Below are positions 10,312-29,360 of a DNA stretch of 31,468 nt, in pieces. The stretch is from positions 1 to 31,468 of the IMG/VR virus record IMGVR_UViG_3300037088_000848; one strand, 5' to 3'. Source of the stretch: a virus. How positions within the stretch are numbered: the first letter of the stretch is position 1; every line of letters starts with the position of its first letter. The notes under the pieces were generated by a model, which saw nothing but the letters and a program-made list of their open reading frames with translations, had not been told where the DNA came from and did no database searches. The translations under genes and the position numbers were made by a program.

Positions 10312-11709
10312 ATGCCCGAATTAAAATCTTTTTATGCTGAACTTGAGTCACCAGAGCCCCGAAAAATGCAACCAACACAAAAAACGGAAAGCATTTTACC
10401 CTTTTATCAATCTTCTGGAAAAGGACAAGAAGAAATAACAAAGCCAGGTGAAGAAACTACAGGACATTTCATTGGTCGAAATATTGCCAGAACCGCAGAA
10501 AAAGTCGGTATTGAAGCTCCTCTTGAAACTATAGAAAGCATCGGCGAAGTAGCAAAATCTATTTCTCCAATTGATAAAATTATGAACTGGATTGGAACTA
10601 CAAAATTAACACCAGAACAACATAATGAGTTAAAGAAACGTGTTGCTAAATACAATATTCATGTTCCTGGCGTGTCTGAACCGCCAATTTCATCTGAAGG
10701 AGTAAAAAAGGGACTTCAAAAAGTTGCTGGTCAATATTTTGAACCTCAATCAGATTTAGAAGATTATTTTGATCAATCTTTAAAATCAGCTAGTCAGATA
10801 CTCTATGGCGGAGAATTTACTAAAGGAAAGTTGTTACGCGCTGGTATTGGTGGATTGGGTGGTGAAGCTGCAAAAAGAGAAACTGAAAAATATCTAGGCA
10901 AAGGTGTTACACCGGAATTAGCAAAATCTTCTATAATGATGTTTACTAGTATGTTTAATTGGAATGGTGCCAAGAAATTAGCTAGTTCTTATTTTAATAA
11001 GGCTGAAGGAGCTAACATTAAAGGTGTTTTAGGTGATGCTATAGATTATGAAAAAGATTTAGATTCGTTAATTTCCAAATGGGAAAAAGGCGGAACTACA
11101 TGGTCTGATAAAAAAGCAATAGAACAAGCTAAAGCAATAAAATCTAGAATTAATAATGGTACACTTGAATATGATGAAGCATGGGAAGCAAAGAAAAAAT
11201 TGAATGAAAATGCAAAAGGACTATATTCAATTAAAGAACCAGGATCTTCTGCTGAAGCAATTGAAGCTACAAAGGGAAAATTTGGAGAAATTAGAGATGC
11301 AACTAAAAAATTTATGAAAAAATCTATGCAAACCCATCCAGATTGGTACCCAAATATAGAAAAGGGAGATGAAATTTTTGGAGCAATACAAAATAGTAAA
11401 TGGATAACAAATTGGATACAAAGAAAACTTCCATTTCTAAAGGAAGATTCCTTAATAAAGACTCTTTTTGCTGGTGCAGAAATTGGAGTGTCTAAATTTT
11501 CACCGTTAAGTGGCGTTGCTGGTATTGGCGCAATTGCAACAAATAAAGCTATAGCCATTGGAAGACAAATGCATAAAAGTCCTATTTTAAGAAAATATTA
11601 TATAGATCTAGTAAAAAATGCATCCAAACAAAACTCCGCAGGATTCCTTAATTCATACAATAGATTTAAGAAAGAATACGAAAAAGAATCTGAAAATAAT
11701 GAAGATTAA
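10312..11709 (+). CDS. Large helical internal virion protein
   Basis: This 465-aa, Lys/Glu-rich protein is mostly helical. Two Gly/Ala-rich, weakly hydrophobic stretches stand out: LRAGIGGLGGEAAKR (about residues 175-190) and SPLSGVAGIGAIATNKAIAIG (about 400-420). Such helical proteins with amphipathic parts are common among ejection proteins. It starts 1 base after the upstream stop, following GGAGAA, and ends the plus-strand virion block. Its stop codon interlocks with the stop of the minus-strand 27-aa gene. No named family was recognised; the AT-richness is higher than in the capsid gene. Confidence 0.45.
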   Translation: MPELKSFYAELESPEPRKMQPTQKTESILPFYQSSGKGQEEITKPGEETTGHFIGRNIARTAEKVGIEAPLETIESIGEVAKSISPIDKIMNWIGTTKLTPEQHNELKKRVAKYNIHVPGVSEPPISSEGVKKGLQKVAGQYFEPQSDLEDYFDQSLKSASQILYGGEFTKGKLLRAGIGGLGGEAAKRETEKYLGKGVTPELAKSSIMMFTSMFNWNGAKKLASSYFNKAEGANIKGVLGDAIDYEKDLDSLISKWEKGGTTWSDKKAIEQAKAIKSRINNGTLEYDEAWEAKKKLNENAKGLYSIKEPGSSAEAIEATKGKFGEIRDATKKFMKKSMQTHPDWYPNIEKGDEIFGAIQNSKWITNWIQRKLPFLKEDSLIKTLFAGAEIGVSKFSPLSGVAGIGAIATNKAIAIGRQMHKSPILRKYYIDLVKNASKQNSAGFLNSYNRFKKEYEKESENNED

Positions 11710-11789
11710 TATCTAACAGGAGGTCCTTCTAATGTATCAAATATTGCCCATAAAATCATTCCGATAAATATTGCGATTATTAAGCCCAT
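11706..11789 (-). CDS. Tiny membrane protein (27 aa)
   Basis: This 27-residue reading frame starts 2 bases after the stop of the 72-aa membrane protein, with GGAAGGAATAGGT as ribosome site. It begins MGLIIAIFIGMILWAIFDTL, a single membrane span of about 17 residues, and ends with a short charged, Pro-containing tail. Placement at the end of a cassette of small membrane proteins, with a stop that interlocks with the convergent virion gene, makes it credible despite its size. Role unknown; a holin-like or modulator peptide is possible. Confidence 0.4.
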   Translation of the reverse strand: MGLIIAIFIGMILWAIFDTLEGPPVRY

Positions 11790-11791
11790 AC

Positions 11792-12010
11792 CTATTCCTT
11801 CCCCATCTTCTTTCTTTCCTCAATAGCACAAAGCCTGCCATGGAAGTCTTTGATCTCTGCTTGAATTTCTCTATAAATTGAAGCAATCAAATCTTCAATT
11901 CTTCTACAATCTGCACGAGATTCAGATCTTGACCACAAAAACATAGATCCAGTTGCCACTATGATTGCCAAAATTGCGCCTACTATCGTAAGTACTTGAG
12001 TCCAATCCAT
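11792..12010 (-). CDS. Small membrane-anchored coiled-coil protein
   Basis: This 72-aa protein has an N-terminal membrane span (about residues 6-26, LTIVGAILAIIVATGSMFLW) and then a charged helix of the type SRADCRRIEDLI...IQAEIKDFHGRLCAIEERKK. Short proteins of this layout, with the 'EIKDFHGRLCAIEE' ending, recur near phage tail and lysis genes. Candidate roles are holin or lysis accessory, or an exclusion protein. It lies 3 bases after the upstream gene's stop and is followed directly by the 27-aa gene, so the cassette is co-transcribed. No endolysin lies next to it, which weakens the lysis idea. Confidence 0.6.
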   Translation of the reverse strand: MDWTQVLTIVGAILAIIVATGSMFLWSRSESRADCRRIEDLIASIYREIQAEIKDFHGRLCAIEERKKMGKE

Positions 12011-12013
12011 AAG

Positions 12014-12202
12014 TTAACCTTTAATTTTATATTCTAATGTTATAATTTTCTTTTCTAGTTGATATATTTTATTTTCGTATTTATCTTCTGATTTTTGAAT
12101 TTTTCTTTCTAATTTAGTATACATAACTAAACCTAAAAAAAACATCCAAAAAATAATCATAATCAACCAATATGCATTTATATTTATTTGAGTATCTGTC
12201 AT
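12014..12202 (-). CDS. Small membrane-anchored coiled-coil protein
   Basis: This 62-aa protein has a hydrophobic span at about residues 11-27 (YWLIMIIFWMFFLGLVMY) followed by a Lys/Glu-rich coiled-coil helix (KLERKIQKSEDKYENKIYQLEKKI). The layout is N-out or N-in span plus one helix, as in the neighbouring 72-aa protein, and similar to inner-membrane spanins or holin partners. It starts 3 bases after the stop of the Phd-like gene, whose last bases (AAGGAGTAGGAG) form its ribosome site. The sequence does not decide between a lysis and an exclusion role. Confidence 0.55.
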   Translation of the reverse strand: MTDTQININAYWLIMIIFWMFFLGLVMYTKLERKIQKSEDKYENKIYQLEKKIITLEYKIKG

Positions 12203-12205
12203 CTC

Positions 12206-12397
12206 CTACTCCTTCAACTCCCTTTTTTCATCTTCTTCTCTCATGCGTTCCTCAATGATCTGCCAGTCATCCCATGAAAGCATCACAGTCATTGGCTTGT
12301 TATTTTTACAAAGAACATACCGTTCATCATTGTAACAAGACAAGTGTACCATCTTAGAAAATTCTCGTGCAGCTTTCTTCAAGTTGATCTTTTGCAT
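12206..12397 (-). CDS. Phd/YefM-like antitoxin-type DNA-binding protein (orphan)
   Basis: This 63-aa protein begins MQKINLKKAAREFSKMV and continues with ERYVLCKNNKPMTVMLSWDDWQ, matching the Phd/YefM pattern (a short helix, then 'vvit.nGkPvavLvs.edye'). Such proteins bind palindromic operators with their N-terminal half and often neutralise a toxin with their C-terminal half. An in-frame ATG at 12418 exists, but GGAGGTAAGG directly before 12397 decides the start. No RelE/YoeB/Doc-type toxin follows. Instead come three tiny membrane proteins on the same transcript. A TGTACA-type inverted repeat overlaps the promoter upstream, which fits autoregulation of the family. Confidence 0.6.
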   Translation of the reverse strand: MQKINLKKAAREFSKMVHLSCYNDERYVLCKNNKPMTVMLSWDDWQIIEERMREEDEKRELKE

Positions 12398-12419
12398 CCT
12401 TACCTCCATGTTAATCAAT

Positions 12420-12448
12420 AGTATGCACGTGTTGTACTATTTGTACAA
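12420..12448 (-). promoter_or_regulatory. Promoter of the Phd-like cassette
   Basis: Read on the minus strand, TTGTAC (12448-12443), a 17-base spacer and CATACT (12425-12420) form a sigma70-like promoter with one or two mismatches in each box. It ends about 22 bases before the Phd-like ATG. Confidence 0.5.
12432..12448. promoter_or_regulatory. Candidate operator: TTGTAC/GTACAA inverted repeat
   Basis: TTGTAC (12432-12437) and GTACAA (12443-12448) form a perfect 6-bp inverted repeat with a TATTT spacer. It contains one exact TGTACA (12442-12447) and one single-mismatch copy (12433-12438). TGTACA is the core recognised by the E. coli YefM-YoeB complex. It overlaps the -35 box and spacer of the cassette promoter, a good place for autorepression by the Phd/YefM-like product. 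Confidence 0.5.
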
Positions 12449-12483
12449 TACATATCTTATTTTTTCCAAATTCTAATTTTATT

Positions 12484-12546: not shown

Positions 12547-15006
12547 ATGACAGGACGTGGAAATGCTTCCAATTTACTTTATGGAAGCCCGAATGGGTTG
12601 ACACAACAAAACCCACTACCAATTGTAGCAAAAAGATCGCCAACGACAAGTGACACAGCATATTTGGTTGGTCAACTTTGGGTGAACAAAGTTTCTAATC
12701 AATGCTGGATTCTAACTAGCGTGGCGGCTGGCCTGGCTACATGGGCTCTGGCCTCTCCAGGAGCTTCAGACGTTGATACTGTCAACTCCTTATCTCCTGT
12801 AGCTGGCGACATAATTGTTGCTGGTGGAACCAACCTTGGCGTAGTCAATGCTGGTCATACAATCACACTGAATTTGATCCCAGCAATCACCCTTGCCACC
12901 TCCGTCACCTCGCCTTTGTTCACTTCAGGGGCAGGCGTACCGGTACAAATTACAGCTCCAGCAAACCGAAACGTAATTATTCAGCTTGGAGATGCAGCAG
13001 GGGCACAAAAACTGTCTATAACAAACAGTGCAACGGCTGAGGTCTGGAGCGTCAACTCTCTTGGGGTATTTGGTGCTTTAGCTGGCATGACTGTAACTGG
13101 AGCTTTGACTCAAACAGCTGGTGTGGTCAATATCGGCCAGGACAATGCTGCAAATGCGATTAATATTGGTGCTGGAAACGTTGCTAGGGCAATTGCTATT
13201 GGTGCTGGAGCGGCTGCTCATACAGTAGCTATTGGTTCAGCTTCGGCAGGGGCAATGTCCATTGATTCAGCCGCAGGGATTTCCCTTGATAGTGCTACAG
13301 CCTCCAACTTTACTGTCACGGGCGTGGCAGACCTTACTCTTGCATCAACAGGCGGATCAGTCAACATTACCGCGACAGAAGCGGCCGTAGATGCAATAGC
13401 AATCAACGCATCCAATGCAGCTGGTGGGATCGATATGAACTCTGGAACTGGAGGGATTGATATCGACTCAACTGGAGCTATTGGAATTGATGCTGGCGCA
13501 GCTTCCAACTTCACAGTAACAGGGGCATTCGACCTGACATGTTCTTCTACTCTGGGACGACTTATCCTCAACTCAGAAAAAGCCGCTGCCGATGCAGTCA
13601 GGATATTGTCAGTAGCTGGTGGATTGGATACAAATGTAGCTTTGCAAATGAACCTTGATTCTTCCCAAGCTGCGGCAGATGCCGTACGCATAATAGCTTC
13701 AAATGCAGCTGGTGGAATTGACGTCAATGCCGGCACAGCTGGTATAGATGTTGCCACTACTGGGGTTCTGTCAATCGATTCAGCTGGAACCTCCAACTTA
13801 ACAACGACAGGAGCTTTCGATTTTACCGTTTCCTCAACCGCAGGATCTGTCATTGTATCTGGTGGTGAAGCAGTTGCAGACGCGGTGCAAATCACATCGT
13901 CAAATGCAGCTGGGGGCGTTTTAGTCACAACTGGAACAGGTGGATTTGCAGCAAATGCAGTAGGGGCAGCAGCTCCCATAACCTTGGATGCTGTAGGCGT
14001 GCTGGAACTCAATTCATCTGGAGCTGCAATTAGTATAGGACAAGATGCTGCTAACTTCGCAGTAAACGTAGGGACGGGCGGAACAAGAACTGTCACCCTA
14101 GGGTCGGCGACATTGACTTCAAGTACGGTTATAAATTGTGGTACTGGTGCAGCTAATATTGCCTCCAATGCCACTGACCATACCACCACAGTAGGTTCTG
14201 TAACTGGGTCTTCGCCAACAGTTATTAGGTCTGGTACTGGAAGAATCACAGTCACTGGGACAGTAAAAGAAATTGATGCTGAGTTTTTAACCAGAAGTGG
14301 AGTCGACGTTACTTTCCAATCTTCTCCCATTGTTCAAAGCTTGGCAAACACAGGTGCTGCGCCAACAGGAGCAACTGGCGATGTAAACCTTTTGCATTTC
14401 CAAGAAGGATTTATATTGGAAGAGTTTGTAAAAGGAGCTGGTGAAACAATTATAGCCCCCAGGATGACTGCCACCGGCCTTTTGATTAGTGGAGATCTCA
14501 CAGCTACAGAAGGATACGAGATAAACGCTGGAGCAGTGAGAGCAAATTCTCCATTAAGCTATACGATTGGCACGTCTCCAGCATTCTTTGCAGAACTGTC
14601 GTTCACTCCCGCTGACGTTTCTGGACTTGAACCTGCGTACTTTGGTTTTAGGAAAACACAAGCCAATGATGCGACATATACCAACTACACAGACTTTGTG
14701 GGATTTGGGATTGACAACCTTGTTTCAACAGGGAAAGCGATTATCCAAACTCAGTTAAATACTGGTGGATTGATCTCCACAGACACAACGGATGCCTGGG
14801 TAGATAACGCAACCCATACACTTAGAGTATTGGTTTCAGCAGCTGGTGTAGTCACCTTCACCATTGATGGTATCGCTCCGGCAGTAACCCAAGCTTTCAC
14901 ATTTGATGCCGGTGATGTAGTTCACTTCTGGTGGACACATGTATTTGGTTTGGGAGCTCCAGGGACTATTAACTGGAATAGTATCAAAATCGGCTTCCAA
15001 CCATAA
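12547..15006 (+). CDS. Repeat-rich tail fibre protein
   Basis: This 819-aa protein is a probable fibre. The N-terminal 70 residues (AYLVGQLWVNKVSNQCWIL...ATWALASPGA) resemble virion-attachment modules at the start of phage fibres. Residues about 190-245 and 490-560 hold short beta-helix-like repeats such as INIGAGNVARAIAIGAG. Between them come three degenerate repeats of about 60-95 residues, each with a SNFTVTGAFDLT-like start and a SNAAGGIDVN...GIDI-like end. The last 205 residues (from about LLHFQEGFILEEFVKG) look like a lectin-type beta-sandwich that could bind the host. AAAGGATG precedes the ATG. Composition (Ala, Gly, Thr, Asn) is uniform across the repeats. A long reverse-strand open frame here is only a shadow of the repeats. 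Confidence 0.7.
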   Translation: MTGRGNASNLLYGSPNGLTQQNPLPIVAKRSPTTSDTAYLVGQLWVNKVSNQCWILTSVAAGLATWALASPGASDVDTVNSLSPVAGDIIVAGGTNLGVVNAGHTITLNLIPAITLATSVTSPLFTSGAGVPVQITAPANRNVIIQLGDAAGAQKLSITNSATAEVWSVNSLGVFGALAGMTVTGALTQTAGVVNIGQDNAANAINIGAGNVARAIAIGAGAAAHTVAIGSASAGAMSIDSAAGISLDSATASNFTVTGVADLTLASTGGSVNITATEAAVDAIAINASNAAGGIDMNSGTGGIDIDSTGAIGIDAGAASNFTVTGAFDLTCSSTLGRLILNSEKAAADAVRILSVAGGLDTNVALQMNLDSSQAAADAVRIIASNAAGGIDVNAGTAGIDVATTGVLSIDSAGTSNLTTTGAFDFTVSSTAGSVIVSGGEAVADAVQITSSNAAGGVLVTTGTGGFAANAVGAAAPITLDAVGVLELNSSGAAISIGQDAANFAVNVGTGGTRTVTLGSATLTSSTVINCGTGAANIASNATDHTTTVGSVTGSSPTVIRSGTGRITVTGTVKEIDAEFLTRSGVDVTFQSSPIVQSLANTGAAPTGATGDVNLLHFQEGFILEEFVKGAGETIIAPRMTATGLLISGDLTATEGYEINAGAVRANSPLSYTIGTSPAFFAELSFTPADVSGLEPAYFGFRKTQANDATYTNYTDFVGFGIDNLVSTGKAIIQTQLNTGGLISTDTTDAWVDNATHTLRVLVSAAGVVTFTIDGIAPAVTQAFTFDAGDVVHFWWTHVFGLGAPGTINWNSIKIGFQP

Positions 15007-17726: not shown

Positions 17727-17939
17727 ATGATTTATATGATTAAAAGAGTAATTCCGATATCAGTTCTTTGGCTAGTCATGTTACTTGTAATGTCAACTTT
17801 TCTATTGACAGGGTGTACCCTAAGCTACACAGTAACCCAAGCCCATGGCTCAGGTTCAGATATCGTGGATGAGGATCAAAAAACTGATGCGGAACCAAAT
17901 TTCACTATCCCAAATCCATTAAACATCTTAAAAACTTGA
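17727..17939 (+). CDS. Small lipoprotein
   Basis: The 70-aa protein has a hydrophobic signal segment (about residues 10-26) ending in LLTGC with Cys30, a standard lipobox; the mature part is only about 41 residues, acidic and Pro-rich (DIVDEDQKTDAEPNF). After cleavage it would be lipid-anchored in a membrane. Small lipoproteins next to fibre genes in phages can be outer-membrane spanins or exclusion proteins; the sequence does not decide. GAAGGA lies 7 bases before the ATG. The next membrane protein begins at a coupled ATG 1 base after this stop. Confidence 0.55.
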   Translation: MIYMIKRVIPISVLWLVMLLVMSTFLLTGCTLSYTVTQAHGSGSDIVDEDQKTDAEPNFTIPNPLNILKT

Positions 17940-17940
17940 T

Positions 17941-18206
17941 ATGAAATTTTAACTGCCGCAATAATTTCTGTTGCTGCTTTAGTTGGATATGTAAGCTATA
18001 TAGTTTGGGGTCCAGAGAATAAAGTAGAAGAAGCCTGCGAACTAGTGATACAAAAAGAATCTGGCCAAGATGTAGAGCTTTCTCCTGTTCAGACTTCACA
18101 ATCTTCAGCCACAGGACCATCACAACCCGCCCCAGTAATCCAGAGCGGGCAGACAGCTGATGAAATTGTTGATGCTGTGGTAGAAGGCATTACCAAGAAG
18201 AGCTAG
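17941..18206 (+). pseudogene. Small membrane protein with a frameshifted start
   Basis: A good coding frame runs from about 17946 to the TAG at 18204-18206: a membrane span (ILTAAIISVAALVGYVSYIVW), then a soluble tail with KVEEACELVIQKESGQDVELSP, a pattern known from small phage membrane proteins. No ATG, GTG or TTG opens this frame ahead of the span. The ATG at 17941, coupled to the lipoprotein stop, reads MKF and then TAA after the run TTTT. One more T in that run would give MKFLTAAIISVAAL and the intact gene. Either a one-base loss inactivated the gene, slippage in the T run restores it, or the base is a sequencing error. Confidence 0.55.
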
Positions 18207-19107
18207 TAACTATTGGCTCATTCGTTGCGTAAGCCTTGATCCCAGGGATCAAAGGAAGTTCTGTAGCAAATGGAATGAAGAAGTGATTCTTATGATAATA
18301 AGTCAATATCTTTTTCATTCCATGCTTACTAATTAGAAATGACTCAGCCTTACTTCTTGTATAAATCTGAAGTATCTTTTCTGAAATGTGCAAACCTGTC
18401 TCATGATCAAACTCTGGCTTATCATAATTTAACTTCACATCTGGCCTTGAGATCATATTAGTTTCTGCACCAGTCGGCCAAGATTCAGTTTGCTCTAGGG
18501 GGTCTGTATACAATACGTCCCACCGCCTATCAATCGACTGTAGGTCAAGCAAATAGCCTTCTATACGATTGGGGTCGCTTGCTATCTTCACAGCATCGTC
18601 CATTACCCAAACAACCTTATACTTACTTTTATATGCATCGCTTATAATTGACAAATAATCCAAGTCTCTTGAGATGCTCTCTTTATTCATGCATGGATGG
18701 AAATAAGTCTTGTCTTCATTAGTCATTAGCGCTGGAGTAAATTTTGGCCTAATAATCTTATGAGAGAAAAACCATTTGACTAAATCTCTCTTTACTACCA
18801 AAGCATCAAAATTCGAACACTTACTAGAGCCCCTCACTCCAAGATTCAAAGCCTTTTTGTAGCTTAGTAACGATGGGTCTTGTGCGTTGTATCTGTAGGG
18901 GATAATATCATATTTGTTAAACTCAGTCTTGTGGCTTCGAAATGTGTCAATATTCTTTTTGAGATTGATCATGTACATAAAATCTACCCCTTCAACAAAA
19001 TTGAGGTGTTTTTTATGCTTGCATTGACTGAAGGAAGACTCTATGCCACTGTGGAGAGGGCCAAAGAAGGAAAAGCAGCATAGAGCCAAAAGGAAGAACC
19101 AGCGCAT
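18190..19107 (-). CDS. Secreted GT25-like glycosyltransferase
   Basis: This 305-aa protein starts MRWFFLLALCCFSFFG, a signal peptide or membrane anchor, so it probably acts outside the cytoplasm or in the envelope. The body resembles glycosyltransferase family 25: FMYMINLKKNIDTF (about residue 43, 'vyvINLdrr..r'), YDIIPYRYNA, and VVWVMDDAVKI with Asp170-Asp171 where the family has its 'lEDD' metal/sugar-nucleotide motif. GATGGAGGTTTT decides the ATG at 19107 over one at 19143. The gene is convergent to the preceding membrane protein (17-bp overlap) and lies 10 bases behind the 101-aa gene. Placed on the opposite strand at the end of the fibre operon, it looks like an accessory gene that alters host surface sugars or the fibres. 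The family call is from motifs, not a search. Confidence 0.55.
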   Translation of the reverse strand: MRWFFLLALCCFSFFGPLHSGIESSFSQCKHKKHLNFVEGVDFMYMINLKKNIDTFRSHKTEFNKYDIIPYRYNAQDPSLLSYKKALNLGVRGSSKCSNFDALVVKRDLVKWFFSHKIIRPKFTPALMTNEDKTYFHPCMNKESISRDLDYLSIISDAYKSKYKVVWVMDDAVKIASDPNRIEGYLLDLQSIDRRWDVLYTDPLEQTESWPTGAETNMISRPDVKLNYDKPEFDHETGLHISEKILQIYTRSKAESFLISKHGMKKILTYYHKNHFFIPFATELPLIPGIKAYATNEPIVTSSSW

Positions 19108-19117
19108 AAAACCTCCA

Positions 19118-19423
19118 TCATGGTTTTTCCAGAAACTTACCATTCGACTGCTTTTTTTCCAACACCTTTTCCAAAAATCTTATCAGCCAGGGTTCAAAAA
19201 AGCACATTATGTCAATGCTGTTTAATTGTTCAAATGAATCGTATATAGAATAGTTTTTATTCAGTCCGTGCAAGAACATGTTTAAATCAGTCATGAGAAA
19301 ATTGAAGTTTGCTTTGCTATATTTTCTAATATCAAAATTTAGTTTATACAATAAATCAGCTGCCTGACTAGTTTGAAAAATGTCCAACACTTGACTGCGC
19401 ATGTCTTTTTGTAGGCAAGGCAT
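19118..19423 (-). CDS. Unknown 101-aa protein upstream of the glycosyltransferase
   Basis: The protein is helical and fairly hydrophobic, with no clear membrane span (DLLYKLNFDIRKYSKANFNFLMTDLNMF). AAGGAGGAGT stands directly before the ATG at 19423, so the upstream ATG at 19486 was rejected. With 10 bases to the glycosyltransferase start it shares its transcript, and may assist it. No family was recognised. Confidence 0.5.
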   Translation of the reverse strand: MPCLQKDMRSQVLDIFQTSQAADLLYKLNFDIRKYSKANFNFLMTDLNMFLHGLNKNYSIYDSFEQLNSIDIMCFFEPWLIRFLEKVLEKKQSNGKFLEKP

Positions 19424-28581: not shown

Positions 28582-28674
28582 CATACATACCTATGTACGA
28601 TTTTCATACATCTCCCTCAGTCATTGCAGTTATTCTTTGATTCCCGTACACTTTCCTATTCATTAGGAGGGTTT
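28582..28674 (+). other. Intergenic region ahead of the recombinase
   Basis: This 93-base stretch contains a direct repeat of TTTTCATACAT (28578-28588 and again from about 28601) and a GGAGGGTTT ribosome site before the recombinase ATG. An attachment site could be here, but nothing in the window proves it. Confidence 0.3.
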
Positions 28675-29360
28675 ATGCGAATAATAGCGTATCTTAGGGT
28701 TAGTTCAGATCAACAAGTAAAAACAGGATATGGACTTGCGAGGAGTTTGCCCAACGCAAAGGATGGACTATCTCTGAATGGTTCATGGATGAAGGGATAA
28801 GTGGGAAACTTGGCTTAAACAAACGACCGGGGCTGGATGCTGCACTCAAATCGCTTAAACGTGATGATGTTTTACTTTGTGTCTGTCGGGACAGGATTGC
28901 AAGAAGCGTCGATTTACTGATTCAAATAGGCAAGATTATCAAAAAGAAGAAAGCAAGTATTTTCACATGTGATGGAACAGGCGACCTTGAAATGAATGCC
29001 CATAATTGGCTTGCAGTTATAATGAGGGACGTGGTAAGTGAATTCGAAAGATTGAATTGTGGCGAACGTACTCATCGTGCTTTAATGGACAAAAAGTCCA
29101 AGGGTTTGGTATATGGTGAGATTCCATATGGATGGAGGAAGGCGTCTGATGGGATGCACTTGGAGAAGGACGAAAGGGAACAAGAGATCATTGAAGAAAT
29201 CTTAAGGATGCATGAGTCTGGCATACCTATTAGGAAGATTTGTCCAATATTGAACGAAAGGGGCATTAAGACAAAGAAGGGCGGGACGTGGGCGAAGACA
29301 AACCTTGGGTATATTATGAAGAGAGTGAGGGGTGAAGAAGAAAATAGAAGAATTAATTAA
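28675..29360 (+). pseudogene. Serine recombinase (resolvase/integrase), frameshifted
   Basis: The first frame, from ATG 28675 behind GGAGGG, reads MRIIAYLRVSSDQQVKTGYGL with the catalytic Ser of the LRVS motif, then runs out of family sequence and stops at 28800. The rest of the protein continues in the +2 frame from about 28737 (CEEFAQRKGWTISEWFMDEG), with DRIARS, the basic 'FERLNCGERTHRAL' helix, YGEIPYGWR and the recombinase domain up to 29360. The 'EAQ..aC' stretch that normally follows 'GyGL' is missing. The gap fits a 19-base loss between two CTT triplets. Without a frameshift no active enzyme is made. A sequencing error is less likely than for a single base. Confidence 0.75.

Follow-up and report, generated by a model that had tools for sequence, protein, structure and literature searches.

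In Salmonella phage P22 the genes of the sieA region are arranged in the order gene 16 (+), sieA (-), orf59a (-), mnt (-, coding for an RHH protein), arc, ant and gene 9, the tailspike gene (+). Mutations conferring escape from SieA were located in the ejection genes 16 and 20. In the prophages that were studied sieA lay between homologues of genes 16 and 9, and it is present in only 22 of 66 P22-like phages (PMC10883804). Antitoxins of the Phd type are known as partners of Fic/Doc, PIN, RelE and MazF-like toxins, and no type II toxin-antitoxin system with a membrane component was known at the time of a survey in 2009 (PMC2701414). YefM operators contain two TGTACA palindromes spaced 12 bp apart (PMC7730913). 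Here we describe a viral locus in which a Phd/YefM-type gene is followed by three genes for tiny membrane proteins. We give about an even chance to the interpretation that a podovirus whose genes are ordered much as in P22 carries here, in a slot equivalent to sieA/immI, an accessory moron cassette under the control of a repressor, and that the likely role of this cassette is superinfection exclusion.

The DNA analysed (the window) is the entire IMG/VR record IMGVR_UViG_3300037088_000848, 31,468 bases in length. In the region of interest the order is virion gene (+), membrane proteins (-), regulator (-), fibre gene (+), with the following features:

10312..11709, plus strand: left flank, 465-aa gene, last of the internal virion genes and placed like P22 gene 16, convergent with the cassette
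11706..11789, minus strand: ORF of a 27-aa membrane peptide (P0004), last in the cassette
11792..12010, minus strand: 72-aa ORF (P0003) of a large phage family, with an N-terminal span and an KDFHGRLCAIEER tail
12014..12202, minus strand: 62-aa ORF (P0002), an N-terminal membrane span followed by a charged helix
12206..12397, minus strand: 63-aa Phd/YefM-type ORF (P0001), first in the cassette, with GGAGG 5' of the ATG
12398..12451, minus strand: leader with the presumed promoter, holding an inverted repeat at 12429-12451
12547..15006, plus strand: right flank, gene for the tail fibre, placed like P22 gene 9, divergent from the cassette

The four minus-strand ORFs of 63, 62, 72 and 27 aa listed in the initial annotation proved to be real, and the description of the last three as one-span membrane proteins behind a Phd-like gene was borne out by a single, strongly hydrophobic stretch in each. 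In the 62-aa protein the span covers approximately residues 13-29, with positive residues behind it. Since in both the 62-aa and the 72-aa protein a positively charged helix follows the span, the charge distribution predicts an N-out/C-in topology for the two. The cassette is antisense to its surroundings and has a virion gene on one side and the fibre gene on the other, in agreement with its earlier classification as an accessory (moron) locus. The left-flank virion gene is syntenic with L162:16113-17975, in an order like that of P22; its position makes it a candidate ejection gene. The N-terminal part of the fibre gene is shared with L086:1818-2639 and with other relatives. Members of the Erf, Phage_rep_O, P22-type portal and DnaB-type helicase families were found in the window or in record G025.

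A search with the capsid protein as query yielded 80 related loci. The cassette was found at the same place in a syntenic relative, IMGVR_UViG_3300038461_000263 (40.3 kb; L043, L086 and L162), where both the order and the spacing of the genes recur. Identities between the window and this relative were 44% for the Phd-like, 90% for the 62-aa and 72% for the 72-aa protein. Of the four-gene order that had been proposed as a possible conserved unit, the first three genes are thus retained in one relative, and the 27-aa peptide is replaced there by a 20-aa hydrophobic ORF (L086:996-1058). Comparison of the 62-aa gene with its L086 counterpart gave a dN of 0.043 and a dS of 0.43 (dN/dS ~0.1), and the two copies of the Phd gene were near synonymous saturation. 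These values indicate that the membrane genes are real, and they point to recent exchange or tight constraint.

Some genes outside the cassette were also compared with the relative. The serine recombinase of the window (28624-29360, plus strand) is broken, its coding sequence being split over two frames; the relative has an intact copy of 237 aa (L163:16105-16818), and no other integrase was identified in the window. The capsid gene of the relative (L162:5589-7300) is interrupted by a homing-endonuclease-like ORF of 186 aa, possibly as part of an intron. Behind the fibre genes of the window lies a 70-aa lipoprotein-like ORF (17727-17939, plus strand; LTGC lipobox), which is strongly conserved in the relative (L163:2087-2299), matches YgdI/YgdR weakly and is possibly a spanin or an exclusion lipoprotein. 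A 317-aa ORF with a signal-peptide-like start (18190-19143, minus strand; counterpart L163:2607-3506) had no convincing NCBIfam match; it may resemble glycosyltransferase family 25.

The assignment of the 63-aa protein to the Phd/YefM family, made earlier from the sequence alone, was corroborated by profile searches. The homologue in the relative (L086:1462-1653) scored above the cut-off of NCBIfam TIGR01552 phd_fam (28.2 against 20.8 bits). The window protein itself had no NCBIfam match; it matched Pfam PF02604 PhdYeFM_antitox with E=1.8e-6 (28.1 bits, cut-off 29.8), and a profile built from the two sequences identified PDB entry 9g12_C, a Phd-type 'antitoxin RelB' (E=2.3e-5). The AlphaFold2 model consists of a helix, three strands and a helix at low confidence (pLDDT 66.5), and Foldseek searches with it returned nothing significant. 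Used alone as query, the protein had no matches in IMG/VR and phage GenBank. The N-terminal half is the most divergent part between the two copies, and the C-terminal third (SWDDW..EE..RE.DEKR.LKE) is better conserved than the DNA-binding half. Since the profile match stops at residue 53 of 63, leaving only about 10 residues, conserved between the two copies, any toxin-binding tail must be short. As stated in the initial annotation, no toxin of known type is encoded downstream: no Fic/Doc, RelE, PIN or MazF partner was detected, either among the neighbours or in a scan of 82 proteins from the window and G025.

The same annotation had proposed a YefM-like operator over the promoter of the Phd-like gene. 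The inverted repeat (GTGTTGTAC-5nt-GTACAATAC, 12429-12451) is present, but when the intergenic region was subjected to 500 dinucleotide shuffles, 188 of the shuffled sequences contained an inverted repeat that equalled or surpassed the best real one. There are 8 copies of TGTACA in the 31.5 kb, close to chance expectation, and near the promoter there is one copy, at 12442, instead of two palindromes 12 bp apart. The repeat is absent from the 40.3-kb relative. Because of the shuffling test and the missing conservation the YefM operator was rejected. A sigma-70 scan found no minus-strand promoter directly upstream of the Phd-like gene. At the equivalent place the relative has TTGACG-17-CATAAT, as read from the sequence, and alignment with this L086 element suggests TTGTAC-17-CATACT as the -35/-10 candidate of the window. 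Of the promoter claimed earlier, what stands is this weak, alignment-based candidate.

The 72-aa protein belongs to a family that was found at 51 IMG/VR loci in a search with a two-sequence profile. Its members combine a variable N-terminal span with a near-invariant tail, E-x-KDFHGRLC-x-IEE (alignment A4). AlphaFold2 predicted a single continuous helix for the window protein (residues 3-68, pLDDT 92.7), and 28 of 30 members are richer in Lys/Arg after the span than before it. There was no convincing Pfam or PHROG assignment, neither source indicated a function, and P0003 and the family consensus found no match among GenBank phages and plasmids. A record contains between 1 and 11 copies, which are often arranged in tandem; the 24-kb record G066 contains 11 members, six of them in tandem (L121:8055-9367 and elsewhere). 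Many copies lie antisense among virion genes. Others are near replication genes or serine recombinases, so that the slot described here is not the only location of the family. The sole genome match was a 5.6-kb contig in a 1.5-Mb alphaproteobacterial MAG. Since the 287 genomes around this MAG contained no further match to the family and only three distant capsid matches, no host assignment is claimed; nor do we claim that the family is chlamydial.

The significance of the terminal peptide was assessed by counting ORFs of 18-45 aa that encode a membrane peptide, have a ribosome-binding site and directly follow a member of the 72-aa family. Such an ORF was found after 11 of 85 family members, compared with 13 of 1206 control genes (Fisher p=6.6e-8). 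Shuffled downstream DNA gave 0.84 tiny ORFs on average (sd 0.89, maximum 4), approximately 13-fold fewer than the 11 observed. This excess indicates that the 27-aa ORF is part of a recurring architecture.

Only one of 39 capsid-protein relatives carries the 72-aa family, the other 38 being without it. This distribution, together with the presence of up to 11 copies in other records, speaks for an accessory cassette. Where the fetched DNA of the relatives reaches the antisense slot, the slot contains mostly an RHH protein of HicB/Arc type near the fibre gene; four of six tested (L022, L023, L032 and L042) were above the PF05534 HicB cut-off. In several relatives other small membrane proteins, the counts of which depend on a simple hydrophobicity rule, occupy the slot beside the virion gene. 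Examples of RHH (HicB/Arc-type) genes that stand together with small membrane genes before the fibre gene are:

L022:13711-14199, antisense
L080:20314-20769, antisense
L083:18740-19139, antisense

RHH genes also head cassettes of the 72-aa family (L094, L099, L109 and L141), and a profile of these heads matched RHH proteins of the PDB (8.4e-6). In the window and in G025 there is no RHH repressor in the slot; a Phd-type protein is found instead, at the position taken by the RHH repressor in relatives. Of the 42 records that contain the 72-aa family, 2 have Phd. A view of Phd as the defining partner of the membrane proteins is not supported: the family is widespread without Phd, and the slot is more often occupied by RHH.

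Three functions had originally been considered, a toxin-antitoxin arrangement with a membrane-acting toxin, lysis timing, and exclusion. Exclusion is the best supported of them, the slot being equivalent to that of sieA/mnt in P22. It is possible, though in our estimation unlikely, that the Phd-like protein neutralizes or transcriptionally silences a membrane-acting toxin, the likeliest candidates being the 62-aa product of the adjacent gene and the 27-aa peptide. The Phd and 62-aa genes are separated by 2-3 bp and were found only together (2/2), and the better-conserved C-terminal third of the regulator goes along with a highly conserved 62-aa neighbour; however, the conserved C-terminus and the downstream gene could represent a single recombination block, and only some 10 residues extend beyond the Phd domain. 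Protein antitoxins paired with membrane-depolarising toxins are known (PanAT and RosmerTA, PMC10440598), and the RHH fold that usually occupies the slot is likewise one of antitoxins. On the other hand, none of the known partners of Phd is present, and the regulator folds are swapped among relatives (Phd, RHH, HTH), unlike in a co-evolved binding pair. A toxin-antitoxin system of an undescribed kind, in which an exchangeable RHH/Phd repressor would be combined with tiny membrane poisons or depolarisers next to the ejection genes of phages without a recognisable endolysin and might serve abortive defence or cell exit, is distinctly improbable.

Holins of the BhlA/XhlA type are built of a one-span helix with a charged coil. 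The cassette proteins resemble this architecture, and it is conceivable, if quite unlikely, that holin-like proteins and a small lysis peptide form a lysis or lysis-timing cassette in phages without a normal endolysin. A neighbour in L136 matched XhlA weakly (0.0015), one of 30 members of the 72-aa family matched a holin PHROG (0.0084), and no Phage_lysozyme, Amidase_2 or SLT was found in 39 related records, nor any lysin family among the scanned ORFs of the window and G025. (The 39 records are the window, G025 and 37 related ones, mostly 25-41 kb in size.) Four of these phages (G004, G011, G015 and G034), however, lack the same lysin families and the 72-aa family as well. Since the cassette is oriented opposite to the late genes, many relatives do without the 72-aa family, and no endolysin gene is adjacent, lysis can be regarded as unlikely; the cassette also has its own regulator, and up to 11 copies of the family are scattered in one genome. 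Rather improbable, too, is a chance assembly of a regulator and unrelated small membrane genes at a tolerated insertion site. The strong turnover of the slot content and the occurrence of the 72-aa family in several other places would fit such a loose moron, but the succession of repressor, membrane proteins and tiny peptide recurs, and the 62-aa gene is under purifying selection.

The cassette thus probably serves accessory self-defence and is not a classical toxin-antitoxin pair. If superinfection exclusion is its role, it would be expressed from a prophage or early in infection. The antitoxin-fold DNA-binding protein, Phd here and usually RHH in relatives, would be made first, and the Phd-type regulator would most likely repress its own operon. 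The other products of the operon would be membrane-anchored helices in N-out, C-in orientation and a membrane peptide of 20-30 aa. Most likely these proteins would enter the inner membrane of the host and stop DNA entry of related phages, as SieA of P22 does. This interpretation suggests a positional rule, according to which uncultivated phages with P22-like gene order carry a cassette of a repressor and membrane peptides at the place of sieA/mnt, and both parts can be replaced by unrelated proteins. It also provides a testable function for a family of small membrane proteins that had been unannotated. The antitoxin-fold protein is probably a plain repressor, and caution is warranted before every Phd gene is called one half of a toxin-antitoxin pair.

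When compared with known systems, the cassette proteins share with BhlA/UviB and XhlA holin-like proteins the short length, the one span and the charged coiled tail; they differ from them in that the 72-aa family has no profile match to these proteins, no endolysin gene adjoins and the coding strand is opposite to that of the late genes. With the Phd/YefM family (PF02604, TIGR01552) the regulator shares a profile match over the whole DNA-binding half and a place at the head of a compact operon, but the Doc, RelE, PIN or MazF partner and the YefM-type double palindrome are missing and the tail is very short. PanAT and RosmerTA (PMC10440598) likewise occur on phages and have a small gene for an antitoxin or DNA-binding protein next to membrane proteins; their antitoxin domains are, however, different, and where they have one toxin the cassette has several membrane genes. 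Homology to P22 proteins was tested and not detected: comparison of the 72-aa family with SieA (hhalign of A4) gave a probability of 0.3%, and the neighbouring virion proteins had no detected similarity to P22 gp20, gp10 and gp7, the three proteins to which this comparison extended. SieA is also larger (162-164 aa, three spans, against 27-72 aa and one span), mnt codes for an RHH and not a Phd protein, and sieA is transcribed from a promoter of its own, not in an operon with mnt, whereas the cassette forms one apparent operon. In both phages, nevertheless, an accessory antisense slot lies between the ejection genes (in the window, candidate ones by position) and the tailspike or fibre gene, with the membrane protein on the virion-gene side and a small repressor on the fibre side. 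The likeness to the sieA locus is one of position and architecture only, and by this analogy the two may work alike.
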